Shown in pieces: positions 21,609 to 63,535 of a DNA stretch of 64,000 bases (the stretch's first letter is position 1; every line of letters starts with the position of its first letter). The position numbers and the translations under genes were made by a program. Source of the DNA: Nocardia arthritidis (GTDB taxonomy: Bacteria > Actinomycetota > Actinomycetes > Mycobacteriales > Mycobacteriaceae); NCBI RefSeq assembly GCF_011801145.1, contig NZ_CP046172.1, forward strand, positions 2,356,001 to 2,420,000. The letters run 5' to 3'. The notes under the pieces are model-generated. The model worked only from the letters and a program-made list of their open reading frames with translations, did not search any database and had not been told where the DNA came from.

Positions 21609-21641
21609 AACGCGGTGAGCCGCACGGAAAGAGGAGTTCAG

Positions 21642-30600: not shown

Positions 30601-33600
30601 TGTGGGAGGTGTTGGAGCGGGCCGGAATCGTGCCCGAGACCCTGCGTGGTACGGAGACAGGGGTTTTCATCGGCGCGTCCTCGATCGATTACGGGCCCCG
30701 GCTGCATCAGCCGACACCGGAGTCGGCGGGATATCTGCTCACCGGCACCGCAGCCAGCGTGCTGTCCGGGCGGGTGGCGTATTCGCTGGGCTTGGAAGGC
30801 CCGGCCATCACGGTGGACACCGCGTGCTCGTCATCGCTTGTCGCACTGCACCTTGCGGCTCGGTCGCTGCGGTCGGGCGAATGCTCGCTCGCGGTTGCCG
30901 GTGGGGTGACGGTGCTTTCGACGCCGGGCATCTTCGCCGAGTTCTCCCGCCAGCAGGGCCTGTCCGCGGACGGGCGCTGCCGGGCCTTCTCTGCGGATGC
31001 AAACGGCACCGGTGCCGCGGAGGGCGTCGGCGTGCTGCTGGTGGAGCGGCTGTCGGACGCGCGGCGGCTCGGGCATCCGGTGCTCGCGGTGCTGCGCGGG
31101 TCGGCCGTCAATCAGGACGGCGCGAGCAACGGGTTGACCGCGCCGAACGGGCTGGCCCAGCGCCGGGTGATCGAACAGGCTTTGCGCTCGGCCGGATTGA
31201 CGCCCGATGAGGTGGATGCGGTGGAGGCGCACGGCACCGGAACCCGATTGGGCGACCCGATCGAGGCACAGGCCGTGCTGGCCACCTACGGCCGGGACCG
31301 GGAACGGCCGCTGTGGCTCGGCTCGCTGAAATCGAATATCGGGCACGCGCAGGCCGCGGCGGGTGTCGGCGGCGTGATCAAGATGGTGCAGGCGCTGCGG
31401 CACGAACTGCTGCCGCGCACCCTGCACGTGAGCGAGCCGACGCCGCACGTGGATTGGGCGGCGGCGCCGGTGCGACTGCTGACCGAGCCGGTGCCGTGGC
31501 CGCGGGATACGCGGGTGCGCCGGGCCGCCGTCTCCTCGTTCGGGATTTCGGGGACCAATGCCCATGTGATCGTCGAGCAGGCGCCGGATCCGGTCGACGA
31601 CGCGCCGCCGGAACGTGGACCGGTGGTGCCGCTGCCGCTGCTGCTTTCCGCGAAAACCGAACCGGCGCTGCGGGATCAGGCCCGGCGGCTGCATACGCTG
31701 CTGACCGAGCGGCCGGAGCTGGAACTCGCCGACGCCGCGACGACGCTGGCCACCGCGCGCACCCATTTCGCGCACCGGGCGGCGGTCACCGCGGCCGATC
31801 GGTCGGGCATGCTGGAAAGCCTTGCGGCACTTGCCGATAGCGGCACCGCCGCGCCGCGTGAAACCTCGGCCGCCGGTGTGACATTCCTGTTCGCGGGTCA
31901 GGGCACGCAGCGGCCCGGCATGGGCGCCGAACTGTACCAACAGTTCCCGGCCTTCGCCGAGGCATTCGACCGGGTATGCGCGGCATTCGCGCCGCATCTC
32001 ACCAGACCATTGCCGGATATCGTTTTCGCGCGGCCGGATTCGCCGGAGGCCGAGCTGCTGCGCGATACCGCGTACGCGCAGCCCGCGCTGTTCGCCTACG
32101 AGGTCGCGCTGTATCGCCTCGTGCACTCGTGGGGGCTGCGCCCGGATACGGTGCTCGGCCATTCGCTGGGGGAGTTGGTCGCCGCGCATATCGCGGGCGT
32201 GCTCACCCTGGACGATGCCGCGACCCTGGTCGCGGCGCGCGGACGGCTGATGGGCTCGGTTTCCGAACCGGGCGCGATGGTTTCCGTCCATGCCGGGATC
32301 GGCGCGGTACAGCGGGTGCTGGCCGGTGCCGGGGACCGAGCCGGGATCGCGGCCGTCAACGGTGACCGGTCGATCGTCGTATCGGGCGCCGCCGATGTCG
32401 TCGGCGCCGTCGCGGACCGGCTCGCCGCACAGGGCGTCAAAACCACCGCGCTGGAGGTGCGTTCGGCCTTCCACTCGCCGCTGATGGATGCCGTCCGCGC
32501 CGAATTCGGCGGTATCGCCGCCGAATTGACCTACCACCAGCCCGAGCTGCGGATGATCTCCACGGTGACCGGGCGAGTGGTCGGCGGCACGGAACCGCTC
32601 GACGCCAGGTACTGGGTGCAGCAGCTGCGCGAACCGGTGCTGTTCGCGGCGGGTCTGCGCGCGGCCGAATCGGCAGGGGCGGGCAACTTCGTCGAAATCG
32701 GCCCGGATGGCACGCTTTCCGGTCTGGTGCGGGCCGCGGCGAACGGTTCGGTCTACACCCTCCCGAGCGGATCCGCCGGTTACCATCCGCCGCTCACCGC
32801 ACACGGCGTGGTGCCGCTGCAACGGCGCGACCGGCCCGAGGCGCTGACCCTGATGGGCGCACTGGGCGCGGCCCATGTCGCGGGTATCGATATCGATTGG
32901 CCCAGGGTGGTCGCGCCGTGGGGCGGCCGACGAATCCCCTTGCCCACCTATGCCTTCCAACGTCGCAGGTACTGGCTGGCCCCCGCGACGGCGCCCGCGG
33001 TGCGCGGCCGGCTCGGCCATCCGATCCTGGGAGCGGGAGTTCCGGACGCCGATCGGACCGTTTGGTCGGGATCGATCGCGCTGGCCGAACATCCTTGGCT
33101 CGCCGCGCATGTGGTCGGCGGTCGGACGATCCTGCCCGCGCCGGTCCATCTCGAATTGGCGCATCGAGCCGCCGTCGAGGCCGGATACGCCGGTGTCGCC
33201 GAACTCACCGTCGAGCGACAGCTGCCGATACCGGCGACCGGCGGCGTCGATGTCCGGGTGGTGCTGGAGGCCGATTCGAATTCGCTTGTCGTCTACGGGA
33301 AGTCGGACGGGGACGCGGATTGGGTGCGGTACGCCGGTGGTGCGCCCGCTACCGAAGCGGCGGTGCCAGGGGAGAATTCCGAGCCGCAAACGATGGGTCC
33401 CGGACAGCAGGCGGTGTTCGAGGCGGAGACCGAACCGCCGACATACGCGCAGCCGCAGGCGATGCCGGAAACAAACCCTCAGCCGCGGTTGGGAGCAGAG
33501 CCGGAGACAGAGACCGCACCGGATCCGGAGACCACGTCCCCTCCGATCGACCGCGACGAGATCTACCGCAGGCTCGCGGAAGTCGGCCTGAATTATGGCC

Positions 33601-40592: not shown

Positions 40593-41237
40593 ATGTTCGT
40601 ACCCGATCTCTATCGCGCACCGGATGATTCGTGGACGGCCGAGCTGATCAGGCGCAATCCGCTTGCCCTGCTGACAAGCAACGGCGGAGCCGACGGCCCG
40701 TACGCCACCCACGTGCCGATAATTCCGGATCCGGAAGGCGCGATGGCGATCGGGGCGGGCGCCACCCTGCTCGGGCATATGAACCGGGCGAATCCGCACT
40801 GGGCCGCGCTGCGGACCGGCGATCCGGTGCTCGCGGTGTTCACCGGGCCGCACGCATACGTGACACCGACCATCTACGACATCACGCCCGCCGCGCCGAC
40901 CTGGAATTTCACCGCCGTCCACGTGCGCGGCACGGTCACCAAGATGCCCGACCCGGAGGCGACGCTCGCGGTGGTGCGGGCCACCGTGCGCGCATTCGAG
41001 CGGGAATTCGGGTCCGGTTGGGATATGTCGGCTTCGCAGGGGTATTTCCGGCAGCTGCTGCCGGGGGTCGGGGCCTATCGGATCGCGGTGACCGCGGTGG
41101 AGAGCATGTTCAAGCTGAGCCAGGAACAGCGGCCGGAGGTCAGGGAGCGGGTGCGGTGCGCATTCGCGGAGCGGGAATGTTCCAGGCATCGTGAGACCGC
41201 GCGAATGATGGCCGAACTACCGGAATCTGGGAGATAG
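40593..41237 (+). CDS. PaiB/KtzT-type protein, probable piperazate synthase
   Basis: 214 residues, 18 bases after the MmpL gene and probably co-transcribed. It has the whole PaiB-like fold signature: MFVPDLYRAPDDSWTAELIR, NPLALLTSNGGADGPYATHV, LLGHMNRANPHWAAL, VLAVFTGPHAYVTPTIYD and PTWNFTAVHVRGTVTKM, with a C-terminal FEREFGSGWDMSASQGYFRQ. PaiB proteins are usually listed as transcriptional regulators, but KtzT, from the same family, is the haem enzyme that closes N5-hydroxyornithine to piperazic acid. Because an ornithine N-hydroxylase opens this cluster, I call this a piperazate synthase by context. The haem ligand cannot be assigned by eye. Confidence 0.75.
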   Translation: MFVPDLYRAPDDSWTAELIRRNPLALLTSNGGADGPYATHVPIIPDPEGAMAIGAGATLLGHMNRANPHWAALRTGDPVLAVFTGPHAYVTPTIYDITPAAPTWNFTAVHVRGTVTKMPDPEATLAVVRATVRAFEREFGSGWDMSASQGYFRQLLPGVGAYRIAVTAVESMFKLSQEQRPEVRERVRCAFAERECSRHRETARMMAELPESGR

Positions 41238-44773: not shown

Positions 44774-47700
44774 ATGACCACATGTGCTCCGTGTGGACTT
44801 TGTGACGACGAGGGGGCGGCTGCTTTGCGTTCGTTTGGTATTTCGTCGGCGCAGCAGGGGTTATGGCTTGCCCAAAAAATGACGCCGGAGTTTTCCAACA
44901 ATCCGACCCTGCTCTGGGAAATATCGGGCGCGGTCGATCTCGGCCTGCTTTCCGCCGCGCTGCGCACCGTATTCGGCGAGACCGATGCCGTCCTGGTCAA
45001 CTTCCGGGAGGACGCGGCCGGATTGCGCCAGGTGATCGGCGCGCCCGGTCGGTTGACGCCGTTCGCTATCGATGTCGGCTCGGCCGACGATCCGGACGCC
45101 GCGGCGCTCACGGCGCTGAACGAGCTGGTCGGCGCACCATTCGATCTCGCGAACGACCCGCTCTACCGGGTCGGCACGGTCCGGCTCGCGCCGACGCGAC
45201 ACCTGCTGGTCGTGATCTTCCAGCATCTGGCCGCCGACGGGTTCAGCGCCATCACCATGTTGTCGTCGCGGATCGCCGAGGTTTATACGGCGCTGCACGA
45301 CGGGCTCGCCGTGCCGCCGCCGCGGTTCGGCGATCCGGCGGCTCTCGTCGATGTGGACGACCAGTACCGGGAATCGGCGCGGTTCACCGACGACGCGCGA
45401 TTCTGGAAGGAATATCTGGCGGGCGATCCGACACCGGCCCGGCTGCCGCACCCGCGCACCGGCATATTCGAATCGCTCGACCGCGATCCGGACCGGCGTG
45501 CGAATCCGGCGGATACCTGGGCGGAATTGGCGGGCGCGATCGGGATGGTCAGCCGCGTCGTCACCATGTCGGGGGCCGAGGCGGACGGGCTGGAGCGGTT
45601 GGCCGACCGCGTCGGCGTGCGCGTATCCGCGGTGCAGTCCGCAGCCGTCGCCCTGTTCTGCGCGCGCCGCTGCGGCCTCGACGAACCGCTGTTCACCATG
45701 AGCGTCCGGAACCGGCGCGGCGCGGCGGCCCAAACGCCCGGGTTGACTCTGAACCTGATTCCGATCCGGGCGAAGGTCGCGCCCGCGGCGAGTTTCGCCG
45801 AGCTCGCCCAGGCCATGGCCGCCGAGCAGCGCCGCGTTTTCGCGCACGCCGACCACCACATCTCCGCCATCCAGCGTTGTGCGGGAACGGCCGCGGCGGT
45901 GCGTGACCCGTTCGGTGTGCTGCTCAACCTGATGCCGTTCGTCGCGGCGCCGGATTTCGCGGGCAGTCCGGCGCGATTGTTCCTCGGGCCGTGGGGAATT
46001 GCCGACGAACTGGCGATCTCGCTGTACCGGGACGGCGCGCAACATTTCCAGGTCCGGATGGACGCGCCGTCGAATCTGTACAGCGCCGCCGAATTGCGTT
46101 GGCTCTGTGACGATCTGGCCGGATTCCTCCGTGCGGTCGTCGAGCGGCCGGATGTGCCGGTCGCCCGGCTGTCGGTGCTGACCTCCGGTCAAACCGACTA
46201 CCTGCTGACCCGGCTGAACGCGACAGCCGTGCCGACGCCCGCCGCATCGGTCCCGGATCTGGTTCGGCGACAACCGGATTCGGCGATCGCCGTGGTCTCC
46301 GGTACTACCGCGCTGACCTATCGGGAGCTGGTCGCGCGGGCCCGCGGGTTGGCCGCGGAGCTGGCGCGGCGCGGTGTCGGGCCGGAGGCGCTGGTGGCGG
46401 TGATCCTGCCGCGATCGCTCGATTTGGTTGTCGCGCTGCTCGCGGTGCTGGAGGCGGGCGGCGCGTATGTGCCCGTCGATCCGGGTTATCCGGCCGAGCG
46501 GGTGGCGGCCATGCTCGGCGTCGCCCGGCCGGTGCTGGTTCTTACGACGTCCGGGTATGCCGAGGTGCCCGGTGACGCGTATCCGGTTGTGGCGCTGGAC
46601 GATCTGCGGGCACTGCCCTCGGCGGGATATACCGCCGACGGTCCGGTGGACCGGCTGGCGTGCGTCATGTTCACCTCGGGTTCGACAGGGGAGCCCAAAG
46701 GCGTCGGCGTCACCCATCGCGGCATCGTCGACTTCGTCTCGGACCGGAATTGGCGCGCGGGGCAGGAACGAGTGCTGCTGCGCTCGCCGCACACCTTCGA
46801 CGCGGCCATCTACGAAATGTGGGTGCCGCTGACCCACGGCGGCACCGTGGTGGTGGCGCCGCAGGGTGACCTCGACACCGCCGGGCTCGCCGCGCTGGTC
46901 ACCAGTCACCGGTTGACTTCGGTCTGCCTGCCCTCCGCGCTGTTGGATCTGCTGGTCGACGCGGATCCGCGCTGCCTGACCGGGCTGGCCAGGGTGGTGA
47001 CCGGCGGCGAGCGGGTGCGGCCCGCGACCATCTCGCGTGCCATGCGCGCCTGTCCGGACATAACGTTCTTCAACGTCTACGGACCCACCGAGACAACCGT
47101 CGGCGCGACAACGCATGTGGTCACCGCCGAGCCGGCCGGAGCGGAACTGCCGATCGGGCGGCCCTACGACAACATGCGGGTCTTCGTGCTCGATCAGGCG
47201 CTGCAACCGGTGCCGCCCGGTCAGCCGGGCGAGCTGTACGTGGCCGGTTCCGGTGTGGCCCGCGGTTATCTCGGCAGGCCCGGGCTCACCACCGAGCGAT
47301 TCGTCGCCTGCCCGTGGGGTCCGGCGGGCGGACGGATGTACCGCACCGGCGATATCGTCGCGCTCACCCCGCCCGGTGCGCTGGTCTTCCTCGGCCGCGC
47401 GGACGAGCAGGTCAAGATCCGCGGCTTCCGCATTGAACCCGGCGAGGTCGAGGCGGTGCTGCGGACGCATCCGGCCGTCGCGGGCGCCGGGGTGGTGACG
47501 CGCGCCGATCCGGCGGGCGGCGGACGACAGCTGGTCGCGTATGTGGCCACCGCGGGCGATGTCACCATCGCCGAGCTGCGCGCGCACGTCGCGCGACAGC
47601 TGCCGGAGTTCATGGTGCCCGCGGCGTACGGGTTGCTCGACCGGTTGCCGGTCAGCGCCAACGGGAAACTCGACCGGACCGCGCTGCCGGAACCCCAGGT

Positions 47701-50700
47701 CGCCAGCACCGAGTACCGGCCGCCGCGCACCAGGAACGAGCAGGTGCTCGCGCGGCTGTACACCGAACTCACCGGTGCCGATCCGGTCGGCGTCGACGAC
47801 AATTTCTTTGCGCTCGGCGGGAATTCGCTGCTCGCGCTGCGGCTGGTCAACCAGTTGCGCGCCGGACTCGGCGCCGAGATCTCGATCGGCGCCGTCTTCG
47901 ACGCGCCCAAGGTCGGCGAACTGGCGCGGCGGCTGGCCATCGGTAAGGGCGGACGTCCGGCGCTGAAACCGGTTGCGCGCCCGGAGCGGATACCGCTCTC
48001 GTTCGCCCAGCGGCGGTTGTGGTTCCTGCATCGGTTGGAGCCGTCCGCCACCTACAACGTGCCCGCGGTATTCCGTCTCGCGGGGACGTTGAATCCGGCG
48101 GTGCTCGCCACCGCGCTGCGGGATGTGGTCGGCAGGCACGAGGCGCTGCGCACGCTCGTCGCCGAGGATGCCGACGGCATCGCCTACCAGCACGTGATCG
48201 CGGTGGATGCGCTCGAGGCGCCCGTGACCGCGGTGTCGCCGGAGTCGGTGGCCGCCGCGGTGGCCGAATCCGCGCGCAGGATATTCGATCTCACCGCCGA
48301 CCTGCCGGTGCGGGCGGAGGTGTTCCAGGTCGGCTCCGAATACCTGCTGATGCTGGTGCTGCACCATATCGCCGCCGACGGTGAATCCGTTGTGCCGCTA
48401 GGCCGGGACCTATCGATCGCCTACGCGGCGCGGCGGGCCGGTCGCGCACCGGAGTGGACCGATCTTCCGGTGCAGTACGCCGATTACACGCTCTGGCAAT
48501 ACGAACTGATGGCCGAAGCATCCGATGCCGACAGTCTCATCGGACGTCAATTCGGTTACTGGCGGCGCGAATTGGCCGGTGTGCGCGGGCCGCTGCGGCT
48601 GCCCACCGACCGTCCGCGACCATCCGCGCCGAGCCATCGCGGCGACGTACTCGACTTCGTCCTGGAACCCGAGCTGCGTGCCCGGTCGACCGAACTCGCC
48701 GGTGCGCGCGGCGGCACCGAGTCGATGGTTTTACAGGCCGCCCTGTCCGTGCTGCTCTACCACCTGGGCGGCGGCAGCGACATCACCATCGGCGCGCCCG
48801 TCGCGGGACGCACCGACGAGGCCTTGGCGGATCTGGTCGGGCTCTTCGTCAACACCTGGGTGCTGCGGGTGCGGCTCAGCGCCGGGCTGCCGTTCGAGCA
48901 GGCGCTCGCGCAGGTACGCGATAAAGCGTTGGCCGCGTACGACAATCAGGACGCACCGTTCGACCGCATCGTCGAACTGGTCAACCCCGATCGCTCGCTG
49001 GCGTATCACCCGCTGTGCCAGGTGATGTTCACCTGGCAGGCCGAATTGCCGGGCTTCGACCTCGGCGGCGTGCGGGCGGAATGGAATCTCGTCCCGACCG
49101 GTACCGCGAAATTCGACCTGTCGTTCACGGTGATCCCCGAATCCGGTGGCGGACTGCGCGGCACCATCGAATACGCCACCGACCTCTTCGACCGCGACAC
49201 AGTTGCGCGCATCGCGGACTGGTACGGCCGGGTCGTCCGGGAGGTACTCGCCGATCCGGCGCGGGCGATCGGTGCGATCCGGCCGTTCGATGGGGTGCCG
49301 GATGTGGGGTCAACGTTCGGTTTTCACGCTGGTGTTGTCCCAGAAGACGTTGCGATACAAGGTTTTTGGCGCACACTGTGTGATGTTCGCCAAGTTGCTG
49401 GCGGTAGCGAACTCGGCGAAGACGTTGTTCGGGACATATCGCGCGACGGTGGCCGGGTGGTCGGTCGAGTGGTGGGGGCACGGGACAGCGGTCCGTTGGA
49501 GGTTGTCTTGCCGCGCGATGGTGCGGGTGACGGTGGGGTGGCGGGGGCGGGGGATAGCGGTTCGTCGGAGATCGTTCCGCCGGGTGATGGTGGCCGGGTG
49601 GCCGGTGGAGTGGTGGGGGCGTGGGACAGCGGTCGGTCGGAGGTTGTCTTGCCGCGCGATGGTGCGGGTGACGGTGGAGTGGCGGGGGTGCGGGATAGCG
49701 GTCCGTTGGAGATCGTCCCGCCGGGCGATGGTGGCCGGGTAGCCGGTGCAGTAGTGGGGGCGCGAGATAGCGGGCTGTCGGAGATCGTCTTGCCGGGTGA
49801 TGGTGCTGGGGCTGGGGAGCTGCGGGTGCTGGGGCCGGGGTTGGCGGCGGTGCCGCCGGGGGTGGCGGGTGAGGTGTATCTGACCGGCGATGTGGCTCGG
49901 AATTATCGAGGGAATTCGGGGTGGGTGGCGCGGTGGTTCGTCGCCGATCCGTTCGGCACGGGTGGGCGCATGTATCGGACCGGTGAGCTCGCGCGGTGCG
50001 GCCGGGACGGGAAATTGGAGTATGCCGGGCGGGCGGATTGGATTTCGGCCGAGGTGGAGGCCGTGCTCGGTGCGCATCCGGGGGTGGCGGCGGCCGCGGT
50101 GGTCGAGGGGGCGGACCGGCGGCTGGTGGGTTATGTGGTGCCGGTGCGGGCGGCGAGCGCCGCGGGCGGCATGGATGTGGACATCAGCGCGGACTTCACC
50201 GCGGCCGACCTCCGGACGTTGGCGGCGCGGCGATTGCCCGCGCATCTGGTGCCCTCGGCGATCGTGCTGCTCGACCGGCTGCCCGTCACCGCGACCGGGG
50301 AGCCGGATCGGGCGGCGCTGCCCGATCCCGATGAGGCGGGCGGCTCGTATCGCGAACCGGTTTCGCCGACCGAGCGGGCGCTCGCCACGATCTTCGCCGA
50401 TGTGCTCGGGCTGGACCGGGTCGGTGTCGACGACGACTTCTTCGCCATCGGCGGGGAAAGTATTCGATCCATTCAGGTGGCGGTTCGCGCGCGGGCCGCC
50501 GGTATCGCGATCAACACCCGCCAGGTGTTCGAGCACCGCACCGTGGCCGGTCTCGCGGCGGCCGCGGGCATCGCCGATCCGGACCGCCCCGCGCGATTGG
50601 CCGAACTCGAGGGCGGCGCGACAGGCTGGGCGCCGTTGTTACCGGTCGCGCGGTACGCGCTCGAATTGGGCGGGGACTGGGCCGATTTCGCGCAGAGCAT

Positions 50701-53700
50701 GCTGCTGGTGCTGCCGCCCGGCGCGGATATCGCGGCGACGGTGACCGCAGTGCTCGACCGGCACGGTGTGCTGCGCACCCGGCTGGTGACCGAACCCGAG
50801 CCCGGTCTCGTCGTCGATCCAGTGGCGAATGCGGCCGACCTGATCCGGACGGTCGAATGGGACGGCGGCTGGACGGGCGAGCGGTGGGACCACCTGCTGA
50901 ATAGCGAATTAGAAGCTGCCGCAGCACAATTGGCACCGGCGTCCGGCGTGATGGCGCGGCTCGTCCAGTTCCGTGCCACCGGCGCGCCGGGCCGGTTGCT
51001 GTTGGTGCTGCACCACCTCGTCGTCGATGTCGTTTCGTGGCAGATCCTGATCTCCGATCTCGCCGCCGCATGGGAAGGGGTCGAGCCGCCGCCCGCGACG
51101 ACATCGGCGCGGCGGTGGGCACACGCGCTGGTCGCCGAGGCCGCGCGCCCCGGCCGAATGGCCGAAATGTCGCTGTGGCGCGGCATTCTCGATGGGCCCG
51201 ATCCGCTGATCGGTACGCGGCCGCTCGACCCCGCCATCGACCTGACGTCGACGGTCGACAGCGTGCAGGTCGAGCTGCCTGCCGCCGACACCGCGGCCCT
51301 GCTCACCGATCTACCCGCCGCATACCGTTGCGGCGCCGCCGACGCCATGCTGGCCGCGCTCGCCGTCGCGGTTCGGCGGTGGCGGGATACCGATGACGAC
51401 TCGGTCCTGGTCCGCGTCGAAGGCCACGGCCGCGAGGAGCAGATCGTTCCCGGCGCCGACCTCTCCCGCACCGTCGGCTGGTTCACCAGTGTGTATCCCG
51501 TCCGGCTCGAAATCCCTACCGCGCCAGGGCCGGGCGCGCTGCTGAAGTCGGTGAAGGAACAACTGCGTGCGATCCCGGACAAGGGGATCGGCTACGGGCT
51601 GCTGCGCTATCTCAACCCGGAGACCGGCCCCGTGCTCGCGGCGCATCCACAGGGCCAGATCTCCTTCAACTATCTCGGCAGCCTCCCGTCCGATACGCGC
51701 GAGGTCGCCTGGGCGCCTGCGCCCGAAGGACTTTCGGCGCCGGTTGCGCGAAATATGCCCGCGGCGTCCGCAATCGATGTGACCGCCGCCGCGATGGATA
51801 TCCGGGGCGAGGGACGCCTGCGCGTCACCTTCGGCTTCCCGCGCGGCGTGCTGTCCCGCGCCGAAGTGCGCGAGCTGGCGCGGCTGTGGCAGCAGGCGGC
51901 GGCCGAATTCGCAAGGCACGCACGCTCATCGGATGCCGGTGGCCTCACCCCGTCGGATGTCCCGCTCGTCGATGTCGGCCAGCCGGAGATCGATGCGTGG
52001 CAGGCCGAGTTCCCGGGCCTCACCGATATCTGGCCGCTCACGCCACTGCAATCCGGGCTGCTGTTCCACGCCTCGATGGCCGAGGGCTTCGACCCGTACC
52101 GGGTGCAACTGGTCATTCACCTCGCGGGCCGGGTCGACGCGGACCGGATGCGGGCCGCTGGCCAGGCCGTGCTGGACCGGCACGCCGGTCTGCGCGCCGG
52201 ATTCGTCACCGGCGCAACGGGAGAACCGGTGCAACTCGTCGTCGCCGGAGTCGCCGTGCCGTGGCAAGAACTCGACCTGCGAACCCTGTCCGATGCGGTG
52301 CGCGCCGACGCCCTCGACCGGTTCCTGACCGATGATCTGCACCGCCCCTCCGCCTTCGACCGTCCGCCGCTGCTGCGGTTGGCGCTGGTGCGCACCGAGC
52401 CGGAACGCGCGGAACTCGTGCTCACCTCGCACCACCTGCTGATCGATGGCTGGTGCCTGTCGATCCTGCTGCGAGAGTTGTTGAGTCACTACGCATCCGG
52501 CGCGGACCGGCTGCCGAGGCCACGAGACTTCCGCAGCTACCTGTCCTGGCTCGCCGAACAGGATCGCGCGGTCTCCGAACAGGTTTGGGTCGACGAGCTG
52601 GACGGCATCGATGAGCCGACCCTGCTCGCCGCGCGGTTATCCGCGCGGGCTCCGGAACCCGGAATCGGTCAGGTCGATGTCCCGCTGTCCATTTCGGCGG
52701 CCAAGGCGCTCGCCCTGCGCGCGGCGGAGCTCGGCGTGACGGTCAATACGGTCGTCCAGGGCGCGTGGGGTCTGCTGCTCACCGAGCTGACCGGTCGCAC
52801 CGATGTGGTGTTCGGCGCGACCGTTTCGGGCCGCCCGCCCGCCATCGCGGGTGTCGACGGCATTGTCGGCATGTTCGTCAACACCGTGCCGGTGCGGGTG
52901 CGCCGCGCACCCACCGACACCGTCGCGGAATTCCTGACCCGGCTGCAGGCCCGGCAGGCCGCGCTCCTGGAACACCATCACATCGGGCTCGCCGAAATCC
53001 AACACCGGACCGGGCTCGGCGTCCTGTTCGACACCCTGGTCGCGTTCGAGTCCTATCCGATGGACCGGATCGGAATCGACGACGCGCGCGCCGCCGCAGG
53101 CATCGAGGTCACCGGTCTACGCCCGCGCACCGGCACCCACTATCCGGTGACGGTGGTGGCCACCCCCGACCCGCATGTTCGAATCTCGTTGCAGTACCAG
53201 CGATCTCTGCTCGACCGACCCACCGCCGACAATATCGCGACCCGATTCGCGCGGGTACTCGACCTGCTCGCCGGCGCACCGGACCGCCGCCTGGCAACCT
53301 TCGATCTGCTGACCCCAGCGGAACACGAGCTGCTATCGCACTACAACGACACCGCGGCACCGCATTCCGCCTCGACAATCCCGGAACTCGTCGAGCGCCA
53401 GGCCGCCGCCACCCCCGACGCGATCGCAGTAACCGACGGCACAACGACATCGACCTACCGTGAGCTGTGCACCCGGGCAAACTGGCTGGCGCACAAGCTA
53501 TTCGAACGCGGCATCCGCCCGGAAACCCTCACGGCCATCGCCCTCCCGCGCTCGGCGGATCTGGTCGTCGCAATGCTCGCAGTATGGCGCGCGGGCGGCG
53601 CATATCTACCCGTCGACCCCGAATTCCCCGGGGCACGACTGGAATTCGTCCTCGGCGAGGCGCAGCCGCAACTGATCCTCACCGACGCCAGGACGGTGCG

Positions 53701-56700
53701 ATTGCTGCCGCCATCCGATACACCGAGGCTGACGCTCGACGAGCTCTACGGGGTATCGGATCCGATGGAGGTGCGCGCTGCCGACGGCGGTGTGAGCGCA
53801 CACGTGGTTGCGGCGAGTCCGGCGTTCGAGGAGTTCGACGGGGTGTCGGATCCGATGGAGGTGCGGGCCGCCGATGGTGGTGGCGCGCCTGCGGTTCGGC
53901 GCGCGCGGCCGGACAACCTCGCCTATGTCATGTACACCTCCGGGTCGACCGGGACGCCGAAAGGTGTTGCGATCACGCACGGCAACGTCGTCAACGGTAT
54001 TGCTCGGCTGATCGACGGGCTTGGGGTCGGGGCGGGGTGGCGGATGCTGGCGGGCACCTCGATCGGCTTCGATGTGTCGGTTTTCGAAATGTTCACCACG
54101 CTGAGCACCGGCGGCTGTGTCGAGGTGGTGCGGGATGTGCTCGTGCTGGGGGAGCGGCAGAGTTGGTCCGGGGGCGTAATCAGCACTGTCCCTTCCGCAT
54201 TCGGTGAACTCACCGAGCGGCTGGCGGGTCGCGTCGCCGCCGATGCGGTGGTTTTCGCGGGTGAGGCGCTGTCGTCGGCGCTGGCCGCGCGGGTGCGTGC
54301 CATACTGCCCAGCGCGCGGCTGATCAACGCGTATGGGCAGAGTGAATCGTTCTACGCCACCGCCTTCGCGATCCCTGCGAACGAACTGCCGCCCGCAGAC
54401 GGCAATGTGCCGATCGGCGGTCCGCTGGGCAATGTCCGGGTGTATGTGCTCGGTCCGGCGTTGCGTCCGGTGCCGCCGGGCGTGGTGGGGGAGTTGTATG
54501 TCGCGGGCGCGAGCATAGGCCGCGGTTATCACCGGGCGGCCGGGACGAGTGCGAGCCGGTTCGTCGCCGACCCGTTCGGTCCCGCGGGTTCGCGCATGTA
54601 TCGCACCGGTGATCTGGCCAAATGGCAGGCGTCGCAGAGCGATTCAATGGGGGATGGTGCCCGGGCGACGGGTGCTCAGGCGCCGCAGAGCGATTCGATA
54701 GGAGATGGTGCCCAGGCGGCGGATGGTCAGGCACCGCAAAGTGATTCGATCAGGCACGACGGCGTGCTGGAATATGTCGGCCGGGCGGACGCGCAGGTCA
54801 AGATTCGCGGCTACCGGGTCGAACCGGCCGAGGTCGAAGCGGCGCTGGCCGAACATCCCGCGGTCCGGCAGGCCGTCGTCGTCGCCGATCGCACCGGGAC
54901 GGTGGCGCGGTTGATCGGATACGCGGTCGTCGGCACTGCGGTATCCACCGAGGAATTGCGGAAGTTCGTCGCGGGACGGCTGCCCGCGTACCTGGTGCCC
55001 GCGGCGGTCGTCATTGTGGACCGCTTCCCGCTGACGCCGAGCGGAAAGCTGGATCGCCGGGCGCTGCCCGCACCGGAATTCACCGGCACGACATACCATG
55101 CGCCGCGAACGCCGGACGAGCACGCGCTCGCAACGCTTTTCGCCGAGGTGTTGGGCGTCGAGCGGGTCGGCATCGATGACGACTTCTTCGCACTCGGCGG
55201 CCATTCGTTGCTCGCCACCCGGCTGGTCGGCCGGATCCGGGCGCGGCTCGCGGCCGAGGTGCCGATCAGGGCCGTGTTCGACGCGCCGACGGTGGCTCGG
55301 CTGGCGACCCGGCTGCGCACCGGATCGCGACCGAGGCCGCCGCTGGTCCGTGCGGTTCGGCCGCAGACGGTGCCGCTCTCGTTCGCACAGCGGCGGATGT
55401 GGTTCATCGATCGGTTCGAAGGTCCTTCGGCCACTTACAATTTGCTGCTCGCCGTCCGGATGCATGGCGAATTGGACACGGCCGCATTGGGTTTCGCATT
55501 GCGGGATGTGGTGGGCAGGCATGAGAGCCTGCGCACGCTGATCGTCGAGGACGCCGCGGGCACGGCGGCACAACGGGTGCTGCCCGCCGCCGAGGTGCCC
55601 GAGGTGTTTACCGTGCGCACCGTGTCCGAGGTGGAGTTGCCCGGCGCCGTCGCCGCTCTGGCCGCGTACGAATTGGATTTGTACACAAGGGTTCCCATCC
55701 ACGCCGAGCTGCTGCGGGTCGCGCCCGACGACCACGTGCTGATGCTGGTGATCCACCACATCGCCGCCGACGGCGCCTCGGCCGCCCCGCTGACCCGCGA
55801 TCTCTCCCATGCCTATGCGGCACGGCGCGCGGGCCGGGCGCCCGACTGGCCGGACCTGCCGGTGCAATACGCGGATTACACGCTCTGGCACGCCGAATTG
55901 CTCGGCGACGAGCGCGATCCGGAGAGTTTGCTCGCCGAGCAGTTCGATTACTGGCGGCGGGAACTGGCTGATGTCCCTGCGCCGCTTGCCTTGCCGACGG
56001 ACCGGCCCCGGCCGCCGGTGGCGAGCCATCGCGGCGGCCGGGTGCATTTCACCGTCGCGCCGGAGCTGATGTCCGCGGTGGATGTGGTCGCGCGCGGCTC
56101 GGGCGCGACGGCGGCCATGGTTTTGCAGTCCGCGCTGTCGGTGCTGCTGCATCAACTGGGGGCGGGTGCCGACATCACCATCGGCTCGCCGATCGCGGGC
56201 CGCACCGACGAGGCGCTCGCGGATGTGGTCGGTTTCTTCGTCAACACCTGGGTGCTGCGGGTCGGGCTCGGCGGCAACCCTCGGTTCGGCGAGCTGCTTG
56301 ACCAGGTGCGCGGCAAGGCGATGGCGGCGTACGAGAATCAGGACGCGCCGTTCGAGCGGCTGGTCGAGTTGCTGAATCCGGAGCGGTCCACCGCGTATCA
56401 CCCGCTGTTCCAGGTGATGTTCGCCTGGCAGAACACGGCCCCGCTCGATCTGGAATTGCCTGGTCTGCGGATCGAGCCGGAACCGACTCCGCCGGTCGCC
56501 GCCAAATTCGACCTGCTCGTCAACCTCACCCCCGATCCGGCGGGCGGTGCGTCGGGCGTGCTCGAGTATGCGACGGATCTGTTCGATCACGGCACCGCGG
56601 AGCTGATCGCCGCCCGGTATCTGCGCGTGCTGCGCCAGGTGGTCGCCGATCCGGCGATCCGGGTCGGCGCGGTCGAGCTCATGGATCCGGCCGAACGGGA

Positions 56701-59700
56701 TCGGTTGGTGCGCAACGACACCGAGACGCCGCTGCCCTCGGTCACGGTGGTCGATCTGTTCGGCCGTCAGGTCGCCGAGACACCGGGTGCGGTCGCATTG
56801 GTTTGCGGCGCAGCCGAACTCAGCTACGCCGAACTCGGCGCGCGGGCGAATCTGGTCGCGAACGCGTTACGCGACAAGGGAATCGGTCCGGAAACGCTGG
56901 TGGCCGTCGCGCTGCCGAGGACGCCGGACCTGGTGGTCGCGCTGCTGGCCGTGCTGATGACGGGCGGCGCCTACGTGCCGATCGACCCGGCATATCCAAG
57001 CCGCAGGCTCGAACAGGTACTGACCGAGGCGCGGCCGCGACTGATCCTCGGCGACGGTGACACCGCGGCCACGCTGCCGACCGGTGATATCCCGGTGCTG
57101 CGGCTGGACGAACTGCGCGGCGCGCCGGACCGGCCTGCGGTATCGATCCGGCCGCGGAACCTGGCCTACGTGATGTACACGTCCGGCTCGACCGGCACCC
57201 CGAAAGGCGTCGCGATCACGCACGAGGCGGTGATCAACGGGCTGCTGGCCCTGATCTCGGCGGTGGGCATCACCCGGCGGACCCGGATGTGCGCCGGAAC
57301 ATCGATCAACTTCGACGTGTCGCTGTTCGAGCTGTTCACCACGCTGTGCGCGGGCGGGACCGTCGAGCTGGTCCGCGATGTGCTGGAGCTCGGCGAGCGC
57401 GAGAGCTGGACCGGTGGCGTGCTCAGCACGGTGCCGTCGGTACTGTCCGGGCTGTACGGGCAGCTTCCCGGGCGGCTCACGGTGGATACCGTCGTCGTCG
57501 CGGGCGAGGCACTGCGGGCCGGGCTGGTGCGGGACGTGCGCGCCGCGCTGCCCGGCACCGGGCTGATCAACGCCTACGGACAGAGCGAATCGTTCTACGC
57601 CAGCGTGTTCGAACTCCCGGAGTCGATCGACACAGGCACGGCGCCGATCGGCGGGCCGCTGGCCAATATGCGAATGTATGTGCTCGGACCGGGTTTGGCC
57701 CCGGTGCCGCCCGGCGTCGTCGGTGAGCTGTACGTCGGTGGTCTCGTCGCCCGCGGCTATTACGGACTCGCGGGCCGCACCGCCGAGCGCTTCGTCGCCG
57801 ACCCGTTCGGCCCAGCGGGTGCGCGCATGTACCGGACCGGTGATCTGGCGAAATGGTCAGTATTGCAGAGCGATTCGGCGGGCCACCTGGAATACGTCGG
57901 ACGCGCCGACAGTCAGGTGAAGGTCCGCGGCTTCCGGATCGAACCCGGCGAGATCGAGGCGGTGCTCACCGCGCATCCGGGAGTGGCGCAGGCCGTCGTC
58001 GTCGCGGGGGAGCACCCGAATGGTGGCAGCCGGTTGATCGGATACGTCGTCGCGAGCACCGCGGACGCGCTCGGCGACGTCGACCTGACCGCCGGTGTCT
58101 CGGCGGCGGAATTGCGGCGTTTCGTGGCGACCCGATTGCCCGACTACATGGTGCCCTCGGCATTCGTGCTGCTGGACCGGTTGCCGTTGACGGCGAACGG
58201 CAAGCTGGACCGCAAGGCGCTGCCCGAACCGGATTCGACCGCGGGCCCGTACCGAGCGCCGGAGACCGTCGAGGAACGGATCCTCGCCGGGGTGTACGCC
58301 GAGGTGCTCGGCCTCGGCGAAATCGGTGTCGACGACGACTTTTTCGCCGTCGGCGGAGACAGCATCCGTTCGATCCAGGTGGTCGCCCGCGCCCGCGCAC
58401 TAGGCATCGACCTCACGCCCCGCCAGATCTTCGAATGCCGAACCGTAGCCGCACTCGCCGACGCCGTACTGCTTGACGGGCGGACCGCCGAACGCCCGGT
58501 GCTGCCGGAACTCGACCAAGGCGGCGTCGGTTGGCTGCCGCTACCGCCCGCCGCCCACTATCTGCTCGAACTCGGCGGCACCCACAACCGGTTCGCGATG
58601 TCGATGGTGGTCGGCCTGCCGCCGGATATCACGATGGAAGGCCTGCTCGCCAGCTTGACCGCCGTAGTCGAGCGACACGACATACTGCGATCGCGGCTGG
58701 TCATCGGCCCGGATGCGAAATCAGTCGTTCGCCGGTCGGATGCGATGACGGAGTCCGTCGATGCGGATGCGGGGCGGTCCGACGCCGTCGTCGCCTCGCC
58801 GGATCCGATCGACCCTGCGCCGCCGGTCCGGCCGGTCGACCGGGGTACGGCGCAAGCGCGGGATGTGGGGCCGGTTGTTGGTTCGCTGGATCCGACCGGC
58901 CCAGCGCGGTCGACCGAGCGCATCGACGGAGGTGCGGGGCGGTTGGGTGATGGGGGTCTGGTTGTCGGCCCGCCCGACTCGGTCGACGTCGCGCAGTTGA
59001 TGTGGTGTGTCGACTGGGATCCGGCACAGTCTTGGGACGAGCGGGTTCGCGCCGAAATCGATACTGCCGCAGGCCAACTCGATCCCGAGGCGGGTGTGAT
59101 GGCGCGGTTCGTCCGGGTGCGGCAGGAGGATGGGCCGGGCTGGTTGGCGCTGGTGCTGCATCACCTGGTTGTCGACGGGGTGTCCTGGCGCATTCTGTTG
59201 CCGGATCTGGCGGCGGCGTGGGAGCGGGTGCGCGACGGTCTGCCGGTCGTGCTGCCTCGGGTGGCGACCTCGGCGCGGCGTTGGGCGCATGCGCTGGCGG
59301 ATGCGGCGCTCGCGCCCGAGCGGATCGCCGAACTGGGGATGTGGCGGAGCGTGCTGGACGGGCCGGACCCGCTGATCGGCGCACGGCGGCTCGACCCGGC
59401 GGTGGACACCTCGTCCACGGTGCGCACGATCCGCGTCGAGCTGCCGATCCCGGCGACGCGGGCGCTGCTCACCGCGCTGCCCGCGGCCTTCCACGGCGGC
59501 GTCGATGACGGGCTGCTCGCCGCGCTGGCGGTGTCGGTGTGCGCGTGGCGGGGCACCGGCGACACCGAGGTGCTGCTGCGCTTGGAGGGACACGGCCGCG
59601 AGGAGCAGGTGGCGCCCGGTGCCGATCTCTCCCGCACGGTCGGCTGGCTCACCAGTATGTTCCCGGTCAGGTTGGCGGTCGGCGAGATCGCGACAGATGA

Positions 59701-62700
59701 TGTGCACGCGGGCGGCGACGCGGTGGCCCGGCTCGTCAAATCGGTGAAGGAACAGCTGCTTTCGATTCCGGACAAGGGCATCGGCTACGGCCTGCTGCGC
59801 TACCTCAATCCGGAGACGGCGGCCGAACTCGCCGCGTACCCGCAGCCGCAGCTCGGCTTCAACTACCTCGGTCAGCTCACCGCCGCCGACCTACCGTCGG
59901 ATGCGGGCTGGCGCGCGGTACCCGGTGTCGGGTCGCCGAGCCCGGATCCGGACCTGCCCGCCATGTCCGCGCTGGAGATCGCCGCCGCCGTCACCGATGA
60001 CGGTCCCGGACCGCAACTGTCTGCGGTATTCGCTTATGCGACAGGGGTTTTGACGGAGTCGAGGGTGCGCGCCCTCACGGAGCTGTGGTGTGCGGCGCTG
60101 ACCGGACTCGCCCGGTATTCGACGCGCCCCGGCGCAGGCGGCCTGACGCCGTCGGACCTCGCTCTGGTTTCGGTCGGCCAACATGAGATCGAGGCGTGGG
60201 AGCGCGAGCATCCGGGACTCGTCGACGTCTGGCCGGTGACGGCGACCCAGTCGGGCCTGCTGTTCCATTCCGCGCTTGCCGGTGATTCGTTCGACGCCTA
60301 CCACATGCAGTTGGTGTTCCACCTGTCCGGCGATGTCGATCCGGCGCGGATGCGGGCGGCGGGCCGGGCGCTGCTGCGGCGATACCCCAACCTGCGCACC
60401 GCATTCGGGCACGACGCCGCGGGCGGGCCGGTGCAGCTGGTGCCGGAGCATGTCGAATTGCCTTGGCGAGAAGTAGATTTCACCGATCGCACCGAAGACG
60501 AGCGCACCGCCGCGTTCGAGCGGCTGCTCGACGCCGACCATGCCGACCATTTCGATCCGGTCGTCCCGCCGTTGCTGCGGATGACGCTGGTCCGGATGGG
60601 CCCGAGGCGGTCGGAGCTGGTGCTCAGCGTCCATCACGCACTGTTCGACGGCTGGTCGCTGCCGTTGCTCATGCAGGATCTGTTGCGGCTCTACGGTTCC
60701 GGCGGAGACACCGCCAGGCTGGCGAGGGTGCGCCCGTACCGTGATTTCCTGGTGTGGCTGTCCGGGCGGGATCGCGCGGACTCGGCGCGGGCGTGGGCCG
60801 CCGAACTGGCCGGGCTGGACGAGCCGACCATGCTGGCAGGCGGCGCGGGGCAGGGGCGGCTCGCGCACCTCGAGGTCGGGCTGCCCGTCGACGTCGCCCG
60901 CAAATTGGCAAGGCGGACAGCGGAATTGGGCGTCACGGCGAATACCGTCGTGCAGGGTGCATGGGCCATCGTGCTCGGCCAGCTGACCGGACGCGGTGAT
61001 GTGGTCTTCGGCGCCACCGTATCCGGTAGACCACCCACCCTCGCGGGCGCCGACACCATGGTCGGGTTGTTCATCAACACCGTGCCGGTGCGGGTGCGCT
61101 ACGAGCCCGGTCAGACGCTCGCGCAACTGCTTACCGGTCTGCAACACCGGCAGGCGGTCCTGATGGATCACCACCAGCATGGGCTCGCCGACATCCAGCA
61201 GGCGGCCGGGTTGGGCAATCTGTTCGACACCCTGGTGGTTTTCGAATCCTTCCCGGTCGATCGATCGGGTCTCACCGACGCGCATGCGGCGGCCGACGTC
61301 GCGATCACCGGTCTGCGCTCGCGAACCGGAACCCACTATCCGCTGATGGTGGTCGCCGATGCGGCGCCCTACCTGCGCATCGTCCTGCAATACCGGGTGA
61401 GCCTCTTCGACGAGCGCGCCGCCCGAGGTATCGCGGACCGGATCACGCGAGTCCTCACCCAATTCGCCGCCGACCCGCACTTGCCGGTCAGCCGGGTGGA
61501 CACCCTGGATCCGAGCGAACGCGCCCTGCTGCGCGAACGCAACGACACCGCGGTGCCGCTCCCGCCGCTGACCTACCCGGAGCTGTTCGAACGCCAGGTC
61601 GCCGCGACCCCGGACGCGATCGCCGTGGTCTGCGGCGAGGTCCAACTGACCTACCTGGAACTGGACGCGCAGGCAAAACTGTTGGCGCACTGGCTGATCC
61701 GCCACGGCGTCGGACCCGAACGCCGAGTCGCGCTGGCACTGCCGAGAACGGCGCGACTCGTTGTCGCGATCCTCGCGATCCTCGACGCGGGCGGCGCCTA
61801 CGTCCCGATCGACCCCGGCTACCCACCGGACCGAGTGCGTTTCATGCTCCTCGACGCCGCACCGGTAGCGATGCTCACCGACCGCGAGACGGCGTCCCTC
61901 CTACCCGACACCGACGTGCCGTATCTGTTCATCGAGGATGCCGATGTGAGCCGCGTCGACGAAAACCGCAGCGGCACAATGGGCGGACTCGGCTTGCGCC
62001 CTGAGAACTTGGCGTACCTGGTGTACACCTCCGGCTCGACCGGTCGGCCGAAGGGCATCGCCACCACGCACCGCAATATGGTCAACGGCGCTATCGCGAT
62101 GGCCGCACTGCTCGGTGGCCGGGCCGCGCCGCGTTCGCTGGCCGCCACCTCGGTGTCGTTCGATGTCTCGGTATTCGAGATCTTCACCGTGCTCAGTGTC
62201 GGCGGCACCGCCGAGGTGGTGCGCGACGCACTCGCGTTGAGTGAGTTCGAACGGTGGTCCGGCTGCGTACTCACCGGGGTGCCGTCGGCCTTCGAGGAAG
62301 TGCTCGAGCACGCGCGCACCACGATCGTCGCGGACACGATCGTGCTCGGCGGCGAGCCGCTCACGCCCGCGATGATCGAGCGCACCAGGGCCCGCATCCC
62401 CGGCGTCCAGGTGGTCAACGGCTATGGGCCGACGGAGGCGTTCTACACGACTGCGTATCCGGTCCCGGAAAACATCGAGGGCGTCGCGCCCGGCGAATCG
62501 GTGCCGATCGGGCGGCCGCTGGCCAACGCCCGCATGTACGTACTCGACCCGTGGCTGCGGCCGGTCCCGCCCGGCGTCATCGGCGAGCTGTACATCGCGG
62601 GCGCCGGCCTCGCCCGCGGCTACCTCGGCAGACCGGCCCTCACCGCGGCGCGTTTCATCGCCGACCCCTTCGCCGCGAACGGCCGCCTCTACCGCACCGG

Positions 62701-63535
62701 CGACCTGGTCCGCTGGACCCGAACAGGCGACCTCGAATACGCGGGCCGCGTCGACGACCAGGTAAAGATCCGCGGCTACCGCATCGAACTAGGCGAGATA
62801 GAAGCGGCCATGGCGGCCCACCCCGCAGTCGCCCAAGCCGCCGTCGTCGCACGCGAATTCGCGGGCGGCAAACGCTTGATCGGCTACGTAGTGCCGCACG
62901 CAGCCGAACCGGCCGCCTCCACGCCGAACGGTACTGTTTCGGATCGCACTGCGCCGCAAGTGATTACACCGGGCACCGCCGTGCCGGATGGTGCCGTGCC
63001 GGGCAGCGCTGCGCCGAGTGGCGCTGTGTCAGCGAGCGTCGGGCCGAAGGGCTCTGCGCCGAGTGGCGTTGTGCTCCATGGCATTGCGTCGGACAGCGCC
63101 GCGCTGGACGGGACCGAGGTGCGTAGGTTCGTTGGCGGACTGTTGCCGGATTACATGGTGCCCGCGTTGGTGATGGTGATCGACGCGCTTCCGCTGACGT
63201 TGAACGGCAAGCTCGATCGGAAGGCGTTGCCGGATCCGGATTTCGCGGCGGCGACGCGGTATCGGGCACCGCGCGATCGGCTGGAGCGGTCGTTGGCGGG
63301 GTTGTTCGGTGAGGTGCTCGGCATCGACAAGGTCGGCATCTATGACGACTTCTTTCTGCTCGGCGGGCATTCGTTGCTCGCGACCAGGTTGATCGGGCGG
63401 ATCCGGGTTGAGCTCGGCGTCGAGTTGCCGATCCGCATGGTGTTCGAATCCCCGACCGTCGCCGGGTTGGCGGGCCGCTGGGCGAGCGTCGCCCCGTCCC
63501 GCAGGCCGCGGCTGCGCCGGATGGCTGAGGAGTGA
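44774..63535 (+). CDS. Five-module non-ribosomal peptide synthetase
   Basis: 6253 residues from the ATG at 44774 (GAGGGTGG upstream). Order, with approximate residues: C1 20-450 (QHLAADG), A1 476-972, PCP1 (Ser1018); C2 1071-1506 (HHIAADG), destroyed A2 1507-1855, PCP2 (Ser1896), E1 1950-2380 (HHLVVDV, Gly to Val); C3 2396-2865 (HHLLIDG), A3 2873-3435, PCP3 (Ser3478); C4 3533-3983 (HHIAADG), A4 3988-4487, PCP4 (Ser4530), E2 4576-5120 (HHLVVDG); C5 5133-5590 (HHALFDG), A5 5596-6155, PCP5 (Ser6200). No thioesterase. Specificity residues read by alignment to GrsA: A1 DAYCVGVVGK; A3 and A4 both DVFTVAAYAK, the type I recall for piperazate; A5 DVFGVGGYTK. C1 should take the polyketide acyl chain. 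The chain passes to the next gene, one base later. Several domains contain in-frame minisatellites. Confidence 0.95.
49291..49444 (+). other. Non-homologous junction replacing the start of adenylation domain 2
   Basis: The C2 domain ends normally at [13 protein letters not shown]. The next 50 or so codons ([20 protein letters not shown] and following) match no NRPS linker or A-domain core and are lower in G+C. They lead directly into the tandem repeat. Either foreign DNA or frame-shuffled A-domain sequence. Confidence 0.55.
49445..49798 (+). repeat. In-frame 141-bp minisatellite, 2.5 copies, in place of the A2 core
   Basis: The unit encodes 47 residues made of two related halves: [20 protein letters not shown] plus four more residues, then 23 residues beginning [15 protein letters not shown]. 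The halves share DG, VG/VAG, DSG and E-V-P. Five halves follow one another; the two full 141-bp units are about 90% identical by eye. It sits where A-domain motifs A1 to A5 belong. Confidence 0.85.
53750..53887 (+). repeat. 90-bp direct repeat in adenylation domain 3
   Basis: GGGGTATCGGATCCGATGGA (53750) recurs at 53840 with one change. Both encode [14 protein letters not shown]. The period is exactly 90 bp (30 residues). It lies just before the [11 protein letters not shown] core, in a loop that is short in A4 and A5. Confidence 0.85.
54635..54752 (+). repeat. 51-bp minisatellite in adenylation domain 3, between motifs A7 and A8
   Basis: The units [34 protein letters not shown] and a partial QSDSI start at 54635, 54686 and 54737, exactly 51 bp apart. 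They separate TGDLAKW from [18 protein letters not shown]4 has a single QSDS at the same place (about 57864), which looks like the unexpanded state. Confidence 0.88.
58716..58990 (+). repeat. 87-bp degenerate repeat inside epimerisation domain 2
   Basis: Successive 29-residue units begin [20 protein letters not shown] and [10 protein letters not shown]; the last runs into the normal E-domain strand. E1 has one such segment ([13 protein letters not shown]). The insert lies before the catalytic HHLVVDG, which is intact. Confidence 0.7.
62920..63120 (+). repeat. 15-bp-period repeat in adenylation domain 5
   Basis: About ten degenerate five-residue units of the form GxAxP ([30 protein letters not shown] and so on) stand between LIGYVVPH and [16 protein letters not shown], that is, in the small C-terminal subdomain before motif A10. 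The A10 lysine ([10 protein letters not shown]) is intact. Confidence 0.8.

Follow-up and report, generated by a model that had tools for sequence, protein, structure and literature searches.

How does a nonribosomal peptide synthetase (NRPS) assembly line make use of a module whose adenylation (A) domain has lost its core? The question is raised by a gene of Nocardia arthritidis located in a 64,000-nucleotide stretch (hereafter, the window; G000:C1:2356001-2420000) of a 10.01-Mb single-contig genome. The gene, on the plus strand at 44774..63535, encodes an NRPS of 6253 amino acids in which the A domain of the second module (A2) is reduced to a stub. An initial annotation of the window, made from the sequence letters, proposed that A2 had been lost to a coding minisatellite and that module 2 must be loaded in trans, be skipped or be dead. 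The comparisons described below suggest that module 2 is probably a working NRPS module without an A domain, loaded in trans and seen in related organisms at several stages of decay.

The A domain of module 2 is reduced to a stub

The open frame covers positions 44717-63535 (6272 codons); comparison with the orthologue P0003 and with P0002, which share this start, makes the ATG at 44774 the likelier one. With domain limits set by motif, the order of condensation (C), A, peptidyl carrier protein (PCP) and epimerisation (E) domains is C1-A1-PCP1 / C2-(A2 stub)-PCP2-E1 / C3-A3-PCP3 / C4-A4-PCP4-E2 / C5-A5-PCP5. Modules 6 and 7 reside on a second NRPS gene (in stretch L003 of the same genome), along with a methyltransferase (module 6) and a thioesterase (module 7). 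Module 2 is made up as follows:

47975..49294, plus strand: C2 condensation domain (HHIAADG; Pfam Condensation, 266.6 bits; 94% identical to P0003, 78% to P0018 and P0030)
49295..49441, plus strand: 49-codon junction, low in GC and in GC at third codon positions (GC3); 39 of 49 identical in P0003
49442..49807, plus strand: coding minisatellite, in frame, 366 bp, 141-bp period (Tandem Repeats Finder (TRF) score 553; length differs in P0003)
49808..50341, plus strand: A2 stub, A6-A7 region plus C-terminal subdomain (AMP-binding_C, 48 bits; motif table)
50342..50614, plus strand: PCP2 (IGGESIR; PP-binding, 50.6 bits; conserved like other PCPs)
50615..51940, plus strand: E1 epimerisation domain (identified by motif; groups with E2 and Streptomyces natalensis E domains)

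The scar has lost motifs A1-A5, leaving a stub with A6-A10. Between 49292 and 50698 the AMP-binding core (PF00501) is absent at E <= 0.01, and AMP-binding_C and PP-binding are the only matches. Pfam and TRF agree with the initial annotation that about 50 odd codons and a 141-bp repeat stand in for A1-A5 between an intact C2 and an intact PCP2, in a frame that is open throughout. The damage it listed in the remnant was also found, YRTGEL replacing YRTGDL and a glutamate replacing the lysine of A10 (GEPDRAALP). The loss it reported for the whole A8 loop corresponds to a gap of 9 residues, and the stub includes A6 and A7 as well. Module 2 has C and PCP domains and lacks a working A domain, and very probably cannot adenylate by itself.

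The junction codons (49295-49441) stand apart in composition. Their GC content is 0.52-0.56 in two 100-bp windows covering most of them, and their GC3 is 0.45 against 0.82-0.85 in C2, the stub, PCP2 and E1. A similar sequence is found in the orthologue P0003 only; in 148 genomes of the genus (five best candidates scored per genome) the junction DNA has no match outside its own locus. A mobile-element origin of these 49 codons was neither shown nor excluded by junction searches on both strands of the 148 genomes. The possibility of a dispersed repeat was discarded, the 566-bp scar region matching only itself in its own genome (40 of 141 candidates scored). In a DNA search of 150 genus genomes, with two candidates scored per genome, the matches listed beyond the gene itself (68-76%) are confined to the A and PCP part. 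The minus strand carries an open frame of 408 codons (window 49310-50536) spanning scar, repeat and stub; the junction's reverse-strand reading, a 44-codon end piece of this frame, finds only itself in the 148 genus genomes.

Related proteins display different stages of A2 decay

The closest comparison is provided by P0003, a 6664-residue protein of Nocardia sp. JCM 34519.1 (PMC9132467 describes JCM 34519 as isolated from a patient) with 5894 identities in 6249 aligned residues (94%). P0003 shares the junction, the repeat family, the stub (92% identical), the A8 gap and the missing A10 lysine; the length of the array differs. Leaving aside a 19-residue difference at the start, all gaps of at least 4 residues between the two proteins fall in repeat loops. 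One of these is the A2 scar and another lies ahead of motif A3 in the A3 domain; A4 contributes its A7-A8 loop, A5 its A8-A10 loop, and E2 one more. Two further Nocardia proteins, P0018 (NPDC051321) and P0030 (NBC_01499), are 73-76% identical in three main matched blocks, with 69% and 68% identity, respectively, in the stub. In both, the A2 core is absent and the scar is a short linker, free of repeats, in which a remnant of A5 may survive; A8 is altered and the A10 lysine is replaced. A derivation of the repeat unit from such an A5 remnant was considered and dropped, the alignment being too weak to claim it.

A near full-length A2 is present in eight further homologues (P0050, P0051, P0039, P0122, P0066, P0078, the S. 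curacoi protein of L049, and P0095), seven of which, all but P0095, are named Streptomyces. For the A2 domain of S. natalensis, Pfam AMP-binding still gives 254.5 bits. A canonical A3 or A8 motif is missing from all eight, and the A10 lysine remains in three. Across the aligned set of 12 homologues (own protein included) the counts are 0 for canonical A3, 0 for canonical A8 (QVK[IV]RG) and 3 for the A10 lysine; in the other A domains of seven complete proteins the A3 pattern occurs in 25 of 28. The three-module proteins P0124 (Actinomadura) and P0123 have, at the position aligned with module 2, an A domain with A3, A8 and the A10 lysine. When genome contigs were searched for related loci, an alignment query identified two Streptomyces loci and a single-protein query none; a scan of viral contigs produced no match.

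The simplest order of events would be inactivation of A2, followed by deletion of its core and then by growth of the repeat, an order read from the distribution of these states and not from a dated tree. Since the core is absent without a repeat in P0018 and P0030, and A2 is non-canonical in the eight homologues, inactivation and deletion appear older than the repeat. The same observations speak against the initial notion that the domain was lost to the minisatellite.

The rest of module 2 is conserved

Identities of C2, PCP2 and E1 to P0003, P0018 and P0030 were compared with those of like domains in the remaining modules, the nine Fisher tests yielding p values between 0.06 and 1.0. Towards P0018 (p = 0.002) and P0030 (p = 0.003), the stub has diverged more than the C-terminal parts of A3 and A4; towards P0003, it shows no difference from intact A C-termini (p = 0.37). 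The stub thus seems to be constrained, less than intact A C-termini, as expected of a structural remnant. The domain that follows E1 is also informative:

51941..53326, plus strand: C3, condensation domain of the type following an E domain (groups with C5 and with S. natalensis C3 and C5, support 0.998)

C3 and C5, both located after an E domain, group apart from C2, C4, C6 and C7. In the diperamycin line, C domains of the post-E type are described as taking a D-configured donor (PMC10888640). Conservation of C2, PCP2 and E1, combined with the post-epimerisation type of C3, makes a dead or skipped module unlikely.

Candidate genes for loading in trans

Three genes further downstream, in stretches L060 and L003 of the same genome, could take part in loading PCP2:

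L060:6290-7858 (G000:C1:2446290-2447858): discrete A domain (TIGR01733, 396 bits, over the cut-off)
L060:5847-6182: discrete PCP (42.5 bits)
L003:15963-17201: alpha/beta-hydrolase with a GFCGG elbow, putatively SyrC-like (Abhydrolase_1, 46 bits)

The genome encodes both a discrete A and a discrete PCP, which are assigned to the cluster on the strength of adjacent ABC and DUF genes that the S. natalensis cluster also has; P450, peptidase, ABC and DUF genes are common to the two clusters. The hydrolase is 67% identical to its S. natalensis counterpart. The elbow residue is a cysteine in each of 120 hydrolases, own included (best 120 of 331 matches). SyrC and CmaE have a Cys nucleophile.

At E <= 1e-60 the putative transferase is found in 3 of 148 Nocardia genomes and, with four candidates scored per genome, in 2 of a sample of 394 from the class; both counts include the N. 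arthritidis genome. Among carriers of the NRPS, at least 9 of 12 (own genome included) have a homologue. It lies on the NRPS contig in S. natalensis, apparently so in NPDC051321, NBC_01499, NPDC018045, P9-2B-2 and NPDC004629, and on a contig other than the NRPS one in S. ziwulingensis and S. curacoi, where it was matched by species name. In two other Nocardia genomes, G101 and G110, the transferase (55-56% identity) is flanked by a free-standing A gene on one side and an NRPS gene on the other. The first module of this NRPS is of C-PCP composition; its two domain matches are about 40 bases apart, which leaves no room for an A domain. As the two loci resemble each other, they count as one independent case, not two. 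In both loci (L083 and L085), pieces of an A domain are also matched between C and PCP, with scores of 24.8 and 49.5 bits in G101, and the transferase has a further, weaker match next to a fragment of an A C-terminus.

In S. natalensis, the discrete A of the cluster (pocket DFWQIGMVH) is accompanied by a small PCP of 42.3 bits, by a thioesterase and by a protein of the chlorinating-enzyme family (457.6 bits). Upstream of the S. curacoi NRPS are a discrete A, a PCP (52.4 bits) and a chlorinating enzyme (426.7 bits). When the S. natalensis discrete A was compared with 16 A sequences, that of P0124 at the module 2 position scored highest (358 bits, 41.5%) and the inactive A2 of P0050 came second (310 bits). 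This likeness, which the N. arthritidis discrete A does not show, is in line with a takeover of the A2 task in S. natalensis.

We propose that the discrete A domain would charge the discrete PCP and that the SyrC-like Cys-elbow acyltransferase would move the aminoacyl group to PCP2. C2 would then condense this group, E1 would epimerise it and C3, with its D-configured donor, would pass it on. A2 would have decayed because it was no longer needed. Its catalytic motifs may have been lost while most of the domain was kept, the state of the Streptomyces proteins; the N-terminal part may then have been deleted, the state of Nocardia NPDC051321 and NBC_01499; and the scar linker may have grown into a length-variable coding minisatellite in the lineage of the window and JCM 34519.1. 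The A6-A10 stub would have been kept as a structural piece. We infer the transferase chemistry, the loaded amino acid, the service of the discrete A and PCP to module 2 and the order of the steps, the latter from distribution.

Several observations weigh against this proposal. The discrete A and PCP are situated about 17 kb past the second NRPS gene. Identity between this discrete A and the S. natalensis one is 34%, and each finds a better match elsewhere: the best S. natalensis match of the N. arthritidis enzyme is A1 of the NRPS (42%), and the S. natalensis enzyme matches the N. arthritidis A1 (257 bits) above the discrete A (234 bits). The pocket of the N. arthritidis enzyme, DAWYIGGIG (motif-anchored), does not read as the threonine code, so the enzyme may serve something else. 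No chlorinating enzyme was found in four stretches of the genome (L002, the window, L003 and L060), where the best score was 49.3 bits; a PhyH protein scores 38.9 bits against a cut-off of 226.3 for a SyrB2-like chlorinating enzyme. Moreover, the best 120 of 331 transferase matches include none for JCM 34519.1, P0095 or SAI-144, and the transferase locus of G398 (L079) has PCP matches with no A or C match within its 3.8-kb stretch. Lastly, the identity of C2 to P0003 is slightly below that of the other C domains (p = 0.06, the lowest of the nine values). The supplying A domain is the weakest link of the trans-loading model. Threonine as residue 2 of the Nocardia product was dropped, the discrete A of this genome being without an S. 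natalensis-like pocket.

Alternative explanations

PCP2 might instead be loaded by another A domain of the same line (A3, A4 or A1), in the way that CmnA-A1 serves CmnI. Such cross-module loading has been demonstrated for capreomycin (PMC12400406), and the pocket residues of A3 and A4, DVFTVAAYA in a motif-anchored reading, are those reported for piperazate in ArtG-A2 of the aurantimycin line (PMC5031334). The hypothesis would, however, render the region's rare transferase, discrete A and PCP superfluous, and Thr is the second residue of a published product whose residue set is similar; we consider this hypothesis unlikely. Still harder to accept is the skipping of module 2, with PCP1 delivering directly to C3 and a six-residue product as in azinothricin-type lines. 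Such lines do incorporate six residues and carry E domains in modules two and four, and skipping would tolerate the loss of A2, but C2, PCP2 and E1 show roughly the conservation of their counterparts in other modules, C3 is of the post-E type, and the product of the cluster whose content is similar is a heptapeptide with Thr in second position.

That module 2 and the whole line are dead, their genes decaying, is very improbable. The lost catalytic motifs of A2, the variable length of the repeats and a stub evolving more quickly than intact A C-termini when measured against two of the three orthologues might be taken as signs of it. Against this stand a single uninterrupted frame here and a single uninterrupted protein record for P0003, the 94% identity between the two with gaps confined as described above, and the motifs elsewhere in the protein, A3, A7, A8 and A10 being intact in A1, A3, A4 and A5 and the His motif in C2-C5. 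Least credible of all is an assembly collapse or sequencing artefact, even though tandem repeats are a classic place for assembly errors: the independently deposited JCM 34519.1 protein has the same junction, stub and repeat family, and the core is absent in two more species without repeats. The comparison with a related strain that the initial annotation had called for therefore argues that the scar is not an assembly collapse. Of the three fates it envisaged, loading in trans is favoured, skipping is disfavoured by the C3 subtype and the heptapeptide of the similar cluster, and death is contradicted by the conservation of C2, PCP2 and E1. It had also considered that an identical region conserved in distant relatives and having a demonstrated function would speak against its view; of these two points, conservation in relatives is the one observed here.

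Layout of the assembly line and comparison with known systems

Other genes of the window fit a lipopeptide cluster containing piperazate:

18924..20288, plus strand: ornithine N-hydroxylase, putatively KtzI-like (PF13434, 338.8 bits; 62% to an S. natalensis cluster protein)
21615..36407, plus strand: three-module type I polyketide synthase (PKS; three ketosynthase and three acyltransferase stretches)
40593..41237, plus strand: PF04299 protein, putatively a KtzT-like piperazate synthase (143.3 bits; 65% to an S. natalensis cluster protein)

The PKS is likely to make the acyl chain. A segment at 36461-37111 matches the thioesterase of the S. natalensis cluster (36%, 101 bits) and is likely a type II thioesterase. 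A putative MbtH-like protein is encoded at about L003:8440-8670. The starter C1 (window 44837-46201) reads FQHLAADG where C2 to C5 have HHxxxDG.

The line has the layout of piperazate lipopeptides of the PM130391 type: seven modules, piperazate codes in modules 3-5 (less clear for A5, whose pocket DVFGVGGYT is piperazate-like), a methyltransferase in module 6 and a thioesterase in module 7. Streptomyces tuirus PHM034 produces the lipopeptides PM130391, PM130392 and PM140293 (BGC0002121), whose residues are Ala, Thr, three of the piperazate type, N-methyl-Gly and N-hydroxy-Ala (PMC10609185). The authors placed Thr second and ascribed it to a separate A-T enzyme and a SyrC-like hydrolase; a halogenase was predicted and halogenation not found (PMC10609185). 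The two systems are alike in having seven residues, three of them of the piperazate type and one N-methyl-Gly, and KtzI and KtzT homologues. With the order after Thr taken from the order of units in Table 4 of PMC10609185, the PHM034 product would fit the N. arthritidis line, module 2 corresponding to residue 2, modules 3-5 to the piperazate-type residues and module 6 to the methylated one. The likeness is one of residue set and gene content; a degenerate or deleted A2 is not described in the available part of that account. The azinothricin family (polyoxypeptin, aurantimycin, diperamycin) also combines piperazate with an acyl chain of PKS origin and has E domains in modules two and four, but its lines as reported have six modules, each with an A domain (PMC3943440, PMC5031334, PMC10888640), unlike the seven modules found here, with module 2 devoid of an A core.

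Modules loaded in trans are known from several systems. In syringomycin synthesis, module 9 of SyrE has no A domain and relies on SyrB1 (A-T), the halogenase SyrB2 and the shuttle SyrC (PMC8949500). Judging from that summary, the situation is similar here in that an A-less module sits in an otherwise canonical line, with separate A and T, a putative shuttle enzyme and, in two Streptomyces relatives, a chlorinating enzyme. It differs in that the module is internal rather than last, contains an E domain, a conserved A6-A10 stub and a repeat, that A and PCP are separate genes, and that the four stretches searched in this genome hold no chlorinating enzyme. In albicidin synthesis, an inactive A domain is complemented in trans by a stand-alone A-T protein (PMC8949500), a state resembling that of the Streptomyces homologues, where A2 is present with non-canonical core motifs; the present case, unlike albicidin as outlined there, forms one orthologous series from an inactive A2 through a deleted core to a scar filled by a minisatellite. 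The capreomycin and viomycin proteins CmnI and VioI constitute an A-less module 3 that is likewise served in trans, in their case by the A domain of another module (PMC12400406), with no shuttle described in the available part of that report.

Coding repeats in NRPS loops

The A2-scar array (49443-49806) has a period of 141 bp, 2.6 copies and 87% matches, and its TRF score (553) is the highest of 7 rows in the window. A second TRF row for the same array gives a period of 72 bp (5.2 copies, score 424); the units alternate between about 24 and 23 codons. Five more repeat sites are found in this gene:

53750..53894 (approximate), plus strand: second site, loop before motif A3 of the A3 domain (three extra 30-residue stretches in P0003)
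54626..54750, plus strand: third site, A7-A8 loop of the A3 domain (51-bp repeat, 2.5 copies; same length in P0003)
57875..57885, plus strand: fourth site, A7-A8 loop of A4 (one QSDS unit; 75 more residues in P0003; position derived from residue 4387)
58814..58994 (approximate), plus strand: fifth site, loop in E2 (84 more residues in P0003)
62924..63104 (approximate), plus strand: sixth site, A8-A10 loop of A5 (147 more residues in P0003)

The units are in frame and length varies relative to P0003 at 5 loops, as in coding minisatellites; TRF periods in both NRPS genes (141, 72, 51, 114, 48 and 189) are multiples of three. A QSDS-type unit is present in the same A7-A8 loop of A3 (third site) and A4 (fourth site), a pattern that copying from one paralogous site to the other might leave. 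Two coding arrays are also present in the second NRPS gene (L003:1316-1564 and L003:5882-6388), both in the loop before motif A3, with 175 and 220 residues between motifs A2 and A3. An array at and past the end of the transferase gene (L003:17184-17641) has periods of 115 and 229, which are no multiples of three. Another NRPS region contains two 51-bp units with 98% matches (L070:12706-12808).

Loop lengths were surveyed in 68 A domains with an A3 motif from 19 stretches of this genome, using motif patterns that miss degenerate domains. The distance between motifs A2 and A3 exceeds 100 residues in 4 of 50 readable A domains, three of them in this cluster and one in L065 (G000:C1:1573001-1593000). 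Such loops are therefore concentrated here, yet not exclusive to this cluster, and the idea of repeats as a genome-wide habit was set aside. The L065 loop (about 11685-12281) has 199 residues between the two motifs and no TRF array. A7-A8 distances above 27 occur in 1 of 57 A domains (in this gene), and A8-A10 distances above 110 in 4 of 40, one of the four in this gene. One might speculate, with a low expectation of being right, that NRPS loops in this Nocardia lineage are sites of fast in-frame minisatellite turnover (six in this gene, two in the next) and that the A2-scar array is an adjustable tether replacing the A core; PCP2 could then make contact with C2, E1 and the trans-loading enzymes, and the module would be tuned by the length of the repeat. 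Among the titles listed in a literature search in which few subscription journals were covered, none was on minisatellites or tandem repeats in NRPS or on vestigial A domains of this kind.

Discussion

Trans-loaded modules without an A domain have so far been known one by one. Here, a single homologous family shows what appear to be successive steps in living genomes, from an inactive, near full-length A domain to a deleted core with the C-terminus kept and then to repeat growth, with C, PCP and E domains conserved. How much of an A domain a trans-loaded module needs for structural reasons thereby becomes testable, a point that bears on module engineering. Length-variable repeats in the loops of catalytic domains represent a separate source of variation in megasynthases. 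Finally, a peptide need not be shorter because an A domain is missing, and product prediction from module content must allow for that.

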